The position numbers and the translations under genes are program-made. 36,275 bases of DNA, taken from Gammaproteobacteria bacterium (lineage in GTDB: Bacteria > Pseudomonadota > Gammaproteobacteria > Pseudomonadales > Pseudohongiellaceae). Below the pieces are notes generated by a model. The model ran no database searches, was not told where the DNA came from, and saw only the letters and a list, made by a program, of their open reading frames with translations. The stretch spans positions 1 to 36,275 of the forward strand of contig JAQWOJ010000050.1 of assembly GCA_029245905.1 (NCBI GenBank), given 5' to 3'. Shown one piece after another: positions 5,030-8,094 of this stretch (position 1 is the first letter of the stretch; every line of letters begins with the position of its first letter).

Positions 5030-5770
5030 ATGGATGAAAATCTCTTACATAAAGATCAAATTTATGCCTCGTCGGTACCGCTCAGTGACTTCGTCTTCGA
5101 TGAAAAAGTGGCGAGCGTCTTTGAGGATATGATTAACCGATCAATTCCAGGTTATAAAACTATAATTTCGATGATCGGAGTACTCGCACACCGGTATTAT
5201 CAAAGAGGTAGCTGTATATATGACTTGGGTTGTAGCTTAGGGGGCGCAACGTTTTCTATATGTAAGAGTTTGCAAAATACTAATTTCTCTTTAATTGCGA
5301 TCGATAACTCTTCGGCAATGATTGAGCGTTTGCAGGCGAAAAAATGGAACTTAGTAGGCAGAGCTCAAGATATCGAAACACGATGCGAAAATATTCAGGA
5401 CGCATCAATAGAAAACGCTTCAGTTGTAGTTTTAAATTTCACGATTCAATTTCTTCCGGTGGCCATTCGAATGAGTCTTATTGAAAAAATCTATTCCGGC
5501 ATGAGACCCGGCGGTATTTTAATTATTTCAGAGAAAATTATCGCGACCGACTCAAGCGTAGATTCTCTTTTAATTGATATGTATCACGAATTCAAGGAAG
5601 CTAAAGGCTATAGCAAATTAGAAATTAGTCAAAAGCGCGCTGCCCTTGAAAACGTTCTGATTCCAGAAACAATTGAGACTCATAGAAATAGGTTGAAATC
5701 CGCAGGCTTTCGTTCAGTCGACGTGTGGTTCCAATGTTTCAATTTTGCATCAATTATCGCAATTAAGTAG
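5030..5770 (+). CDS. cmoA: Carboxy-S-adenosyl-L-methionine synthase CmoA
   Basis: CmoA makes carboxy-SAM from SAM and prephenate, the cofactor CmoB uses on tRNA. The 246 residues show the family hallmarks: FDEKVASVFEDMINRSIPGY near residue 22, the SAM-binding YDLGCSLGGATFSI, and MRPGGILIISEKI before the C-terminal half. Length is normal. No Shine-Dalgarno sequence is obvious before the ATG; the upstream bases are AT-rich. cmoB follows eight bases later, which is the standard cmoAB operon. Confidence 0.95.
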   Translation: MDENLLHKDQIYASSVPLSDFVFDEKVASVFEDMINRSIPGYKTIISMIGVLAHRYYQRGSCIYDLGCSLGGATFSICKSLQNTNFSLIAIDNSSAMIERLQAKKWNLVGRAQDIETRCENIQDASIENASVVVLNFTIQFLPVAIRMSLIEKIYSGMRPGGILIISEKIIATDSSVDSLLIDMYHEFKEAKGYSKLEISQKRAALENVLIPETIETHRNRLKSAGFRSVDVWFQCFNFASIIAIK

Positions 5771-5778
5771 TAATTCTC

Positions 5779-6738
5779 ATGAATTTTGATCCTCTAATAG
5801 ACGCTATTTCAGGCACAAAAATTGAGGCTTTACTTCCACTGTTAAAAAATAGGCAGCTAAATCAAATAAAATATGGGGATTTCCCCAGGTGGCAATTATT
5901 TTTATCACAGATGCCTAATATCGAAACCTCTTCAAGCTGCTTTGGTGATGTTGTAAAAATAGGAGATTCAAGCGAGATCGACAACGTTACCTATAACAAC
6001 TTGAAAACAAAATTAAAAGAATTGACTCCATGGCGGAAGGGCCCTTTTAACATTTTTGGCGTTGAAATAGATTCAGAATGGCGTTGCGAAATGAAGTGGC
6101 ATAGATTGAAGAAACATATTCGACCATTAGCCGGCAGGAAAGTACTCGACGTCGGCAGCGGCAACGGTTATTTCGGCTTTCGTATGATTGAGCAAGAAGC
6201 CGAACTGGTTATAGGTTTGGATCCCCATATTCCATATGTATCACAATTTTGGGCGCTAAAAACTTTCCTCCCGAATTGCCCTAATTTCGTCCTCCCCTAT
6301 GGGCTAGAGCAAATTCCAGGCCAGGTAAGTGGATTCGACACCATATTTTCAATGGGTGTCATTTACCATAGAAAGGCGCCAATCGATCACTTGTTACAAT
6401 TAAGGCAAGCCCTATGCCCTGGCGGAGAGCTGGTGCTTGAGACTCTTTGCGTGGACGGTCCGACTGGGTATTGCCTAACCCCTGAACAAAAATACGCCCG
6501 TATGCCTAATGTATGGTTTATACCATCTTTAGGTACGATAGAGAATTGGCTATCGCGGTGCGGCTTTAAAAACATTCGAGCATTAGAAGAGTGCCCGACC
6601 CATCCAAGTGAGCAGAGACGCACAGACTGGATGCCTTTCCAATCGCTAGCTGATGGATTAAAGGGCGGCCAGGAAAAACAGACCATTGAAGGATATCCAG
6701 CTCCGACCAGGGTAATAGTCTTAGCTTCATTAGAGTAA
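5779..6738 (+). CDS. cmoB: tRNA U34 carboxymethyltransferase CmoB
   Basis: CmoB transfers the carboxymethyl group of carboxy-SAM to 5-hydroxyuridine at tRNA position 34, giving cmo5U, which widens wobble decoding. The 319 residues have an N-terminal helical region (1-115). The catalytic Rossmann domain has VLDVGSGNGYFGFRM, GLDPHIPY and FSMGVIYHRKAP, and the C-terminal RRTDWMPFQSL is also family-typical. Length equals the usual 320-325 residues. It is the second gene of cmoAB. No terminator is evident in the 190 bases after it. Confidence 0.96.
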   Translation: MNFDPLIDAISGTKIEALLPLLKNRQLNQIKYGDFPRWQLFLSQMPNIETSSSCFGDVVKIGDSSEIDNVTYNNLKTKLKELTPWRKGPFNIFGVEIDSEWRCEMKWHRLKKHIRPLAGRKVLDVGSGNGYFGFRMIEQEAELVIGLDPHIPYVSQFWALKTFLPNCPNFVLPYGLEQIPGQVSGFDTIFSMGVIYHRKAPIDHLLQLRQALCPGGELVLETLCVDGPTGYCLTPEQKYARMPNVWFIPSLGTIENWLSRCGFKNIRALEECPTHPSEQRRTDWMPFQSLADGLKGGQEKQTIEGYPAPTRVIVLASLE

Positions 6739-6828
6739 TACCAAGAGAAAGGGTCGTACGTCTTTAATTGGTAAGCTTCTCCTGTTCCTGCAGTGACACA
6801 TCAGTATAGTTAAGTTTTCTTAATTCTT

Positions 6829-6856
6829 TTGTCTAGATATACTCTGTGATTACAAA
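6829..6856 (+). promoter_or_regulatory. Possible promoter for the RAYT-like gene
   Basis: TTGTCT (6829-6834) and TACAAA (6851-6856) are separated by 16 bases, about 75 bases before the ATG at 6930. A short TGACC/GGTCA stem lies further downstream in the leader. Moderate match only. Confidence 0.28.
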
Positions 6857-6929
6857 TCCATGTGTTACCATGCGGTTTTGGTGACCTTTTAGGGTCAGCT
6901 CTAATTTTATCTATTGAAAAGAGAGAAAA

Positions 6930-7898
6930 ATGGCCAGACCTTTGCGAATAGAATATCCCGACGCGTTATATCACATTTCTAACTATAGCGCGGGCAACCA
7001 AAGAGTATTTCCTTCAGAAAAGTACTTCGAGGCCTTCTTAAAAGGATTGGGGGAAACTTGCTCCCGGTTAAACGTGGAAATACAGTCTTTTTGCCTGCTC
7101 CGCAATCAATATCATTTGATCGTAAAAACACCGGAAGCTAATCTTTCCCGTTTTATGAGGCAGGTTGATGGATTGTATACTCAGCATTATCAGAAACTTA
7201 AACGAAGCTCGGGATCTCTGTTCAAAGGCAGATACAAAGCGGTCTTGATTCAATCTGAGAAATATTTATTGCCGCTGTCTAGGTATATTCATTCTAAAGT
7301 TAAAGCTTCTGAGGTGAACAATTATCCCTATAGTAGCTACACATATTTTACTAGGAAGGGAAAACCGCCCCAATGGTTCAATAGGAATGAAATACAAAAA
7401 AAATTAGGAGTAGCCGCTTCAAAAAGGGGTCTAGCGTACAAAAGATATGTCGCGGTTGGCGTCGATGATGAAATGGCACACTTTTATGGGAAGAAAAATC
7501 TTTCATCTATCATGGGTGATGAAAAGTTCAGGAAAGCGGCTCTAAAGAAGCGCTTTGCTACAAAAACAAGGGGAGTGTCTCGCGGCGCGAATGCGAAATG
7601 GCGGCCTTCATGTCGACAAATTGTAACTGCAGTTGCCAAGCGATTCAGAGTTTCAGAAAACAGTATTTATAAAGCGGCTCGGGGCCCAGGGTCGAAGAAT
7701 ATTCCTCGGTGGGTGGCTATGTATCTATGTCAAGAACTGTCTGCTTCAACCCTTCAGTCAATTGCAAAATTATTTAAGTTGAAACGTTACGGAACTGTTT
7801 CGACAACAGTCGGCAAGTTGAGAAAAGAATTAAAAGAAGATTCTAAATTACTTACCTCTACGGAGAGGCTGTCTAAGCAATTAAGCAAAGGAAAGTAA
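6930..7898 (+). CDS. RAYT-like Y1 transposase-family protein with DnaA-domain-IV-like tail; active site altered
   Basis: The N-terminal part (1-135) is a Y1/IS200-type transposase domain of the REP-associated (RAYT) branch: MARPLRIEYPDALYHIS, then TPEANLSRFMRQVDGLYTQHY and SLFKGRYKAVLIQS. The metal-binding HUH motif, usually NHYHL, reads NQYHL (Q60-Y61-H62), so the first histidine is lost. The probable catalytic tyrosine Y119 is kept in RYIH, but the usual following N-P-V-R-A reads S-K-V-K-A. Residues about 225-300 resemble DnaA domain IV (IVTAVAKRFRVSENSIYK, then PRWVAMYLCQELS and a helix with RYGTVS). The gene is solitary, with no inverted repeats or target duplication around it. It may be a domesticated DNA-binding protein; function is unknown. 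Confidence 0.8.
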   Translation: MARPLRIEYPDALYHISNYSAGNQRVFPSEKYFEAFLKGLGETCSRLNVEIQSFCLLRNQYHLIVKTPEANLSRFMRQVDGLYTQHYQKLKRSSGSLFKGRYKAVLIQSEKYLLPLSRYIHSKVKASEVNNYPYSSYTYFTRKGKPPQWFNRNEIQKKLGVAASKRGLAYKRYVAVGVDDEMAHFYGKKNLSSIMGDEKFRKAALKKRFATKTRGVSRGANAKWRPSCRQIVTAVAKRFRVSENSIYKAARGPGSKNIPRWVAMYLCQELSASTLQSIAKLFKLKRYGTVSTTVGKLRKELKEDSKLLTSTERLSKQLSKGK

Positions 7899-7921
7899 CA
7901 GTCGAAAGCGCTTATAGTTTT

Positions 7922-7942
7922 ATGGTCCGATCCACGGACTAT
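7922..7942. terminator. Hairpin in the RAYT-rpmG convergent gap
   Basis: ATGGTCCG (7922-7929) and CGGACTAT (7935-7942) pair over 8 bp (one G-T pair) around ATCCA. The right arm contains the rpmG stop codon (7939-7941). There is no clear T-run on either strand, so it may be a weak bidirectional terminator or an RNA 3'-end stem. Confidence 0.4.
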
Positions 7943-8094
7943 TTGATCTTGCTCTCTTTGTAAAGAACATGTTTCCTTATGACTGGATCGTACTTTTTTA
8001 CTTCCATCTTGTCCGGCGTAGTTCTCTTATTTTTGTCAGTGGTGTAATAATGACCAGTGCCAGCACTTGAAACCAATTTGATTTTATCCCTCAT
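7939..8094 (-). CDS. rpmG: 50S ribosomal protein L33
   Basis: This 51-residue basic protein was read from the minus strand: [17 protein letters not shown], then [20 protein letters not shown] and [14 protein letters not shown]. It matches bacterial L33 along its whole length and is of the zinc-free type, because the paired CXXC motifs are absent. It lies 21 bases after rpmB, the normal rpmB-rpmG operon. Its stop lies inside a hairpin (7922-7942). Confidence 0.96.

Follow-up and report, generated by a model that had tools for sequence, protein, structure and literature searches.

The stretch of DNA analysed here (36,275 nucleotides, hereafter the window) contains a gene that runs from its ATG start without interruption, as an earlier note made from the letters alone had described it. 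The gene lies behind two others which, from their sequences and order, we take to be cmoA and cmoB. Its product joins a Y1 transposase domain to a C-terminal helix-turn-helix (HTH) module, and the spacer that separates it from cmoB contains several short blocks that recur in related genomes (Table 1).

Table 1. Features of the cmoB-linked locus, with positions in the window.
Feature	Position	Strand	Basis
cmoA and cmoB, constant upstream neighbours	5030..6738	+	ORF list, locus comparison
Site A remnant directly behind the cmoB stop codon (AAAGGGTCGTACGTCTTTAATT here, GGGGTCAAGCCTCGCTTTAATT-like in relatives)	6748..6769	+	locus comparison
Site B, GCAGTGACACA, another block conserved within the genus between cmoB and the gene	6790..6800	+	locus comparison
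GGTGACC, remnant of the TTGACG promoter-like element of relatives; N17-TAACTA part missing	6880..6886	+	locus comparison, promoter scan
Site C, AGGGTCAGCTCTAATTTTATC, transposon-end-like motif, putative operator	6891..6911	+	conservation, locus comparison
Dead TIRYT-type Y1 transposase homologue with DnaA-domain-IV-like HTH, 322 amino acids	6930..7898	+	ORF, Pfam, alignment, dN/dS, tree
Y1_Tnp (HUH-fold) domain, residues 14–122	6969..7295	+	Pfam (E = 2.9e-7); fold similar to 4er8
Q60-Y61-H62 in place of H-U-H	7107..7115	+	alignment
Y119 (nucleophile position; Phe or His in many orthologs) and K123, which replaces the metal-ligand Asn	7284..7298	+	alignment; role of Asn from PMC6006769
Bac_DnaA_C-like HTH, residues 230–294, inside the most conserved stretch of the protein	7617..7811	+	Pfam (E = 1.2e-9); fold

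Fold and active site

Both Pfam matches exceed the gathering scores. An AlphaFold2 model built from an alignment of 17 orthologs and relatives (mean pLDDT 83.9, pTM 0.62) matches the RAYT/REP-hairpin structure 4er8 over residues 1–189 (Z 15.7, rmsd 2.8, 155 residues) and domain IV of DnaA (1j1v) over residues 226–320 (Z 14.8, rmsd 1.7, 94 residues). Unlike DnaA, the protein has no AAA+ part. The superposition on a RAYT structure had been proposed in the earlier note, which also recognised the DnaA-domain-IV-like segment correctly. Its description of the protein as RAYT-like holds for the Y1 fold but not for the class: the NCBIfam model REP_Tyr_transpos scores 43 bits against a cut-off of 80, and the nearest class in the literature is the TIRYT (terminal-inverted-repeat-associated tyrosine transposase; TnpA-Y1 subclass 2.1) rather than the REP-associated RAYT. 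In the available excerpts of PMC3733652 and PMC6006769, TIRYTs are characterised by a Y1 core with a C-terminal Bac_DnaA_C-type HTH extension, and this is the architecture of the window protein.

Residues 59–63 of the window protein read N-Q-Y-H-L in place of the N-H-Y-H-L found in HUH-intact relatives (L044–L048), confirming that Gln60 occupies the position of the first metal-binding His. Further downstream, Y-I-H-x-N-P in the same relatives corresponds to Y-I-H-S-K-V in the window. According to an excerpt of PMC6006769, the third metal ligand of these enzymes is an Asn about four residues after the Tyr. The altered N-P-V-R-A stretch after Tyr119, already pointed out from the sequence, can be refined accordingly: its Asn is the third ligand position. 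Because Gln60 and Lys123 replace His and Asn, the window protein lacks two of its three metal ligands.

The orthologs of this protein form a clade (described below) that we refer to as the dead clade. None of its 96 aligned rows, which include at least five same-genome duplicates, contains the complete set of H60, H62, Y119, and N123. Position 60 is Gln in 60 rows, Glu in 19, Gly in eight, Arg in four, His in three, and Ser and Lys in one each. Position 62 is His in 88 rows and Gln or Asn in four each, and position 123 is Asn in none. Tyr119 does mark the position of the nucleophile, as had been supposed, but the residue itself is lost in many orthologs (Tyr in 60 rows, Phe in 31, His in four, X in one). 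Tyr-to-Phe is the exchange in catalytic mutants of TnpA-REP from E. coli, Stenotrophomonas, and Marinomonas (PMC8266576, excerpt). The active-site end states of the dead clade are QYH, EYH, EYN, GYH, RYH, and HYQ, and the HuH motif and catalytic Tyr of TIRYTs are not conserved in it. Two loci of genus g39 (L086 and L087) carry the HYQ state, in which the second His is lost and a His stands at the Tyr position; they sit on a long branch, as a separate path of decay.

Could these proteins still be active or conditional transposases or nucleases with an alternative metal site? A Gln or Glu might replace the His ligand, the third ligand in IS608 is a Gln (PMC6006769, excerpt), and most rows retain His62 and Tyr119. 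We regard this reading as very unlikely, since position 60 also accepts Gly, Arg, Ser, and Lys, the Asn is never present, and Tyr gives way to Phe or His in 35 of the 96 rows despite strong purifying selection. In addition, the right-end motif is mostly gone, and every dead-clade copy with a flank long enough to judge stands behind cmoB. The earlier note had named active relatives with the same QYH as an argument against its own interpretation; among the relatives aligned, none combines QYH with an otherwise complete active site.

Descent, distribution, and selection

In a midpoint-rooted protein tree of hand-picked sequences, 39 dead-clade rows lie on one side of a 100/100 branch and 12 HUH-intact rows on the other. 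Descent from the TIRYT protein family is borne out by the HUH-intact relatives across this branch, which share the domain order and an upstream sequence word with the dead clade. A single clade with this support suggests that the gene settled behind cmoB once and that activity was lost once.

The position behind cmoB is constant. A comparison of synteny, as advised in the earlier note, found cmoB upstream in 37 of 37 loci of a later dead-clade set and likewise in all dead-clade loci compared before, provided that their flank was long enough. The linkage holds in the distant loci L039, L040, L041, L043, and L049, whose downstream genes differ. One of these (L043, CAMDML010000006.1) is titled as a Klebsiella pneumoniae MAG; its cmoB is identical to that of G361 (L079), and it is probably a mislabelled bin. 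No HUH-intact relative whose flank reaches 1.1 kb or more lies behind cmoB; the flanks of L044, L048, and L091 are too short to tell.

A search of this family of marine bacteria, at a threshold of E 1e-50, found the gene in 95 of 137 genomes, among them 66 of the 92 better ones, and in all eight genera. Only one of the 97 listed matches contains an internal stop; the match in G503 has an insertion that leaves the frame open, and those in G025 and G487 are partial. The gene is single copy in the genome of the window. Within the set formed by this genome and others of the same genus (G000–G060), 38 of 61 genomes carry a close ortholog (71–100% identity), whose 5′ end is intact in 37, and the remainder have no gene or, in G058, a 3′ fragment only. 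Named relatives include uncultured Pseudohongiella isolates. Homologues on plasmids and phages were limited to partial matches below 40% identity.

We then consider the genomes without the gene. cmoB was sought in 31 genomes without an intact copy (including G025 and G058, both with gene fragments); it was found in 22 and gave no match in nine. In 19 of these 22, the next genes after cmoB, at a distance of approximately 25 to 350 bp, are rpmG and rpmB, encoded on the opposite strand, and no trace of the gene was detected in the gap; in the other three, the contig stops. The absences fall into clusters of 11, 6, 1, and 1 rows on a cmoB tree of 78 rows and require three changes. Absences this few and this clustered indicate vertical inheritance with a few losses rather than the patchy distribution with frequent frameshifts that would speak against a conserved function. 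Being absent from whole subclades, the gene is not essential across the genus. The cmoB tree and the dN/dS analysis both exclude ten loci that are duplicates, truncated, or broken (L031–L034, L036–L038, L050, L094, and L108). In L108 (G106), the gene and cmoB are both in pieces near a contig end.

Pairwise dN/dS values (NG86) for the gene have a median of 0.058 and a range of 0.006–0.123 in 14 of 15 chosen pairs, one pair having yielded no dS. The median for cmoB in the same pairs is 0.103, so that the gene lies below its neighbour. This check, also suggested in the earlier note, reveals strong purifying selection. Conservation is concentrated in the HTH: over 59 rows, the mean frequency of the major residue is 0.91 for residues 223–300, with 36 of 78 positions invariant, against 0.78 and none of 15 positions for the stretch around the Tyr. 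The proposal that the gene is a selfish or neutral relic, passively inherited with cmoAB, could draw on its absence from some subclades with no remnant detected in place. The dN/dS of about 0.06 largely refutes this proposal, and together with intact frames across eight genera and the highly conserved HTH it makes a relic extremely unlikely. The fixed place behind cmoB, the low dN/dS, and the intact frames instead support the central idea of the earlier note, that of a domesticated DNA-binding protein kept for something other than transposition.

A transposon-end-like motif upstream of the gene

The end motif of TIRYTs is given as GGGGWSAS in excerpts of PMC3733652 and PMC6006769. The word GGGGTCA, which fits its first seven positions, occurs upstream on the coding strand in all 12 scored HUH-intact relatives (0.13 genes expected from shuffles). 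The nearest copy lies 45–52 bp before the ATG in 11 of them and at 101 bp in L045. Its inverse, TGACCCC, is found at or after the stop codon in eight of the 12 (0.19 genes expected), and neither word occurs on the wrong strand within 150 bp. These 12 loci were drawn from 16 HUH-type loci without cmoB linkage, the partial or truncated L088, L089, L091, and L092 having been left out. The 7-mer was chosen after five of the 12 had been seen; the other seven form an independent check, with the qualification that L084 and L090 are near-identical and come from one genome. The shuffles swap non-overlapping dinucleotides and provide a rough control. The full 8-mer GGGGWSAS occurs upstream of only two and downstream of four of the 12 relatives. 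Directly after the stop codon of L044, six TGACCCC words stand close together.

The dead clade has kept mainly the upstream copy, in five of its genera. All 45 loci of the window's genus (g1) carry site C as AGGGTCAGCTCTAATTCTATC or a close variant of it, in 40 cases 42–62 bp before the ATG; in genus g38, all eight loci have it in the form GGGGTCAACTGTAATT or one close to it. In a follow-up set from g1, g38, g144, g145, and g146, site C beats the shuffles in 26 of 27 loci, weakly in g145. Of the 22 newly examined loci in this set, 21 pass: no more than 1 of 200 shuffles matched as well, except for L157 with 3 of 200. L152 fails, with nine mismatches to site C, yet carries GGGGTCAACTGTA. L126 (g145) passes with six mismatches, but at 159 bp from the ATG. 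Site C was not found in g143, g147, and g39, which keep the dead gene (0 of 8 loci, then 0 of 10, four loci being common to both sets). At the other end, the right-hand word TGACCC remains in four of 45 g1 loci, none of eight g38 loci, and two of eight other dead-clade loci (L043 and L079, identical in cmoB), in each case overlapping the stop codon; no copy was seen in the window. Another mark of TIRYTs, inverted GGGGWSAS-type motifs at either flank of the gene, is thus not a property of the dead clade.

Site C follows the gene. With up to three mismatches it occurs at 54 places in 50 of the 81 genus genomes, one beside the gene per genome; a double match in G104 represents one locus present on two contigs. 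Among G000–G060, all 37 carriers whose gene is intact at its 5′ end have site C, and all 23 others lack it; G025 (a carrier cut off before residue 44) falls outside both counts, and the 3′ fragment of G058 is among the 23. The earlier note had seen no REP-like repeats nearby and had overlooked this motif. It had proposed a search for short palindromes linked to the protein; the linked DNA word seen here, site C, has a consensus that is not palindromic.

Several candidates for dispersed repeats or a regulon were examined and rejected. As a dispersed repeat of the REP kind, the word AAGGGGTCA is not enriched in the genome of the window (14 copies against 17 for the control), and it exceeds the control in some congeners, for example, G003, G012, G026, and G108. 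No genome among the 81 has more than three site A-like words, and site B has few exact copies elsewhere. A regulon defined by the 21-mer of site C with up to three mismatches would comprise three weak extra matches, compared to seven for the reversed control; those in G017 and G035 lie inside ORFs, and that in G112 lies approximately 50 bp before an unrelated ATG. For GGGTCAnCTnTAATT there are 12 extra copies in the 81 genomes against 10 for the reversed control, and all 12 lie inside ORFs, leaving no second target among them. No Rfam match was found in the window. The lack of AAGGGGTCA enrichment in the window's genome and the non-palindromic site C may set this system apart from the RAYTs (TnpA-REP), which are described in an excerpt of PMC8266576 as catalytically active, tied to multicopy GTAG hairpins, and already domesticated.

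The HTH may not read GGGGTCA itself, because HUH-intact relatives share this word though their recognition helices differ. A similar doubt about whether the DnaA-like HTH reads TIRYT ends is voiced in an excerpt of PMC6006769, and site C is unlike the DnaA-box consensus quoted there. The bases after GGGGTCA track the recognition helix: L047, L048, and L083 (HYS.VSQ/HYSAVSQ) differ in both from L044, L046, and L080 (RTGSIP). These few independent cases hint that the HTH reads the stretch that follows the word.

Promoter geometry and a possible regulatory role

A TTGAC word precedes site C in 51 of 52 upstream regions, by 43–51 nt in 44 of them and by 26–62 nt overall (L025 was scored on a nearer TTGAC, the usual one being present too). 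Nearly all loci with this word have a TAACTA-like hexamer 17 nt after it. In most loci, site C starts approximately 18 nt after this −10-like hexamer; in L002, L009, L093, and L112, it starts 2 nt after. The window is the exception, because a deletion leaves only GGTGACC-TTTT-AGGGTCA, and a scan of the + strand from 6700 to 8000 found no sigma-70-like promoter. Expression of the window gene may rely on read-through from cmoAB. The same deletion leaves a short hairpin (TGACC-TTTT-AGGGTCA, 6880–6897).

In at least six HUH-intact relatives (L044, L046, L047, L048, L080, and L083), GGGGTCA stands just upstream of a TTGAC word. Since GGGGTCA precedes TTGAC in these relatives and follows the promoter in the dead clade, the promoter seems to have switched sides relative to the end motif, and the former transposon end would now be transcribed early. 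The early transcribed region is a classical position for a repressor to bind.

We surmise that the dead TIRYT regulates at least its own gene in a sequence-specific manner. This reading is probable, although we infer binding, targets, and the direction of control. A Y1 transposase cassette with GGGGTCA ... TGACCCC ends would have settled behind cmoAB in an ancestor of the family. Comparison with the relatives shows the loss of its catalytic residues and, for the most part, of its right end. The protein has remained conserved, as has the promoter-proximal end in five of the eight genera (weakly in one). Most likely the protein binds DNA and recognises GGGTCA-nCTCTAAyTC, in most loci about 18 nt downstream of its own −10-like hexamer. 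From this position it would repress its own transcription, and it probably acts on a few further sites. We give roughly even chances to the more specific version, in which a Y1/HUH transposase became a vertically inherited transcription regulator and its own transposon end became the operator, with the promoter on the far side of GGGGTCA. The inverted half-words TTGAC and GGGTCA around the −10 hexamer may then be bound together by a dimer.

Two other roles are conceivable. The dead protein could be a host-side antagonist of mobile TIRYTs that occupies GGGGTCA ends and blocks active relatives, with invading cassettes as its targets. The word would be common to the dead protein and its active-type relatives, and other Y1 transposase homologues are present in genomes of the genus. 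We nevertheless judge this role unlikely: beyond the core, site C and the relatives' ends have drifted apart, and AAGGGGTCA is not rarer but slightly more frequent in carriers than in verified empty-site genomes (median ratio to control 0.95 versus 0.70; p 0.003 for 69 of 81 genomes, 12 unclear ones left out, the genomes being non-independent and different in base composition). Alternatively, the protein or some other factor could read site C in the 5′ untranslated region of the mRNA, as post-transcriptional self-control. The location of site C downstream of the −10-like hexamer and its constant orientation relative to the gene would fit, but HUH-intact relatives have the word upstream and, inverted, after the gene, as expected of a DNA end. 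Control of this kind appears quite improbable.

If site C is an operator, this locus would be a clean natural case of the conversion of a transposase to a regulator, and the HUH-intact outgroups, varied active-site states, and empty sites needed for direct tests are all at hand. TldR proteins, dead transposon-encoded nucleases derived from TnpB that act in transcription, offer a conceptual parallel. An excerpt of PMC13418256 describes them as RNA-guided transcription factors. In contrast to TldR, which is of the TnpB type and RNA-guided, the protein here is the Y1 transposase itself, paired with a transposon-end-like DNA site.

The dead clade differs from known TIRYTs in the loss of the HuH motif, the Asn, and often the Tyr, in a mostly lost right end, in its fixed place behind cmoB, and in strong selection; it shares with them the Y1 domain with its C-terminal HTH and, at the gene flank, a word fitting the first seven positions of GGGGWSAS. 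In the survey of PMC6006769, as far as its excerpt goes, Y1 sequences without complete motifs were set aside as probably non-functional. The dead clade, kept across eight genera despite its incomplete HUH/Tyr set, demonstrates that such proteins can be selected more strongly than an adjoining tRNA-modification gene. The clade is also relevant to the target of the DnaA-like HTH in TIRYTs, which the same excerpt leaves undecided. The literature searched, to which most subscription papers did not belong, contained no description of this dead cmoB-linked protein.

The remaining blocks of the spacer lie nearer to cmoB. Site A is possibly an outer transposon end. Site B (TTGC-GTGACACA) is repeated in tandem over a short stretch in L006. 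The spacer of G002 (L015) is stretched to approximately 960 bp, and on contig C106 of this genome, site A-like words recur at a spacing of 341 bp upstream of the gene. The site B array of L006 and the site A repeats of G002 are local repeat expansions in the spacer between cmoB and the gene.
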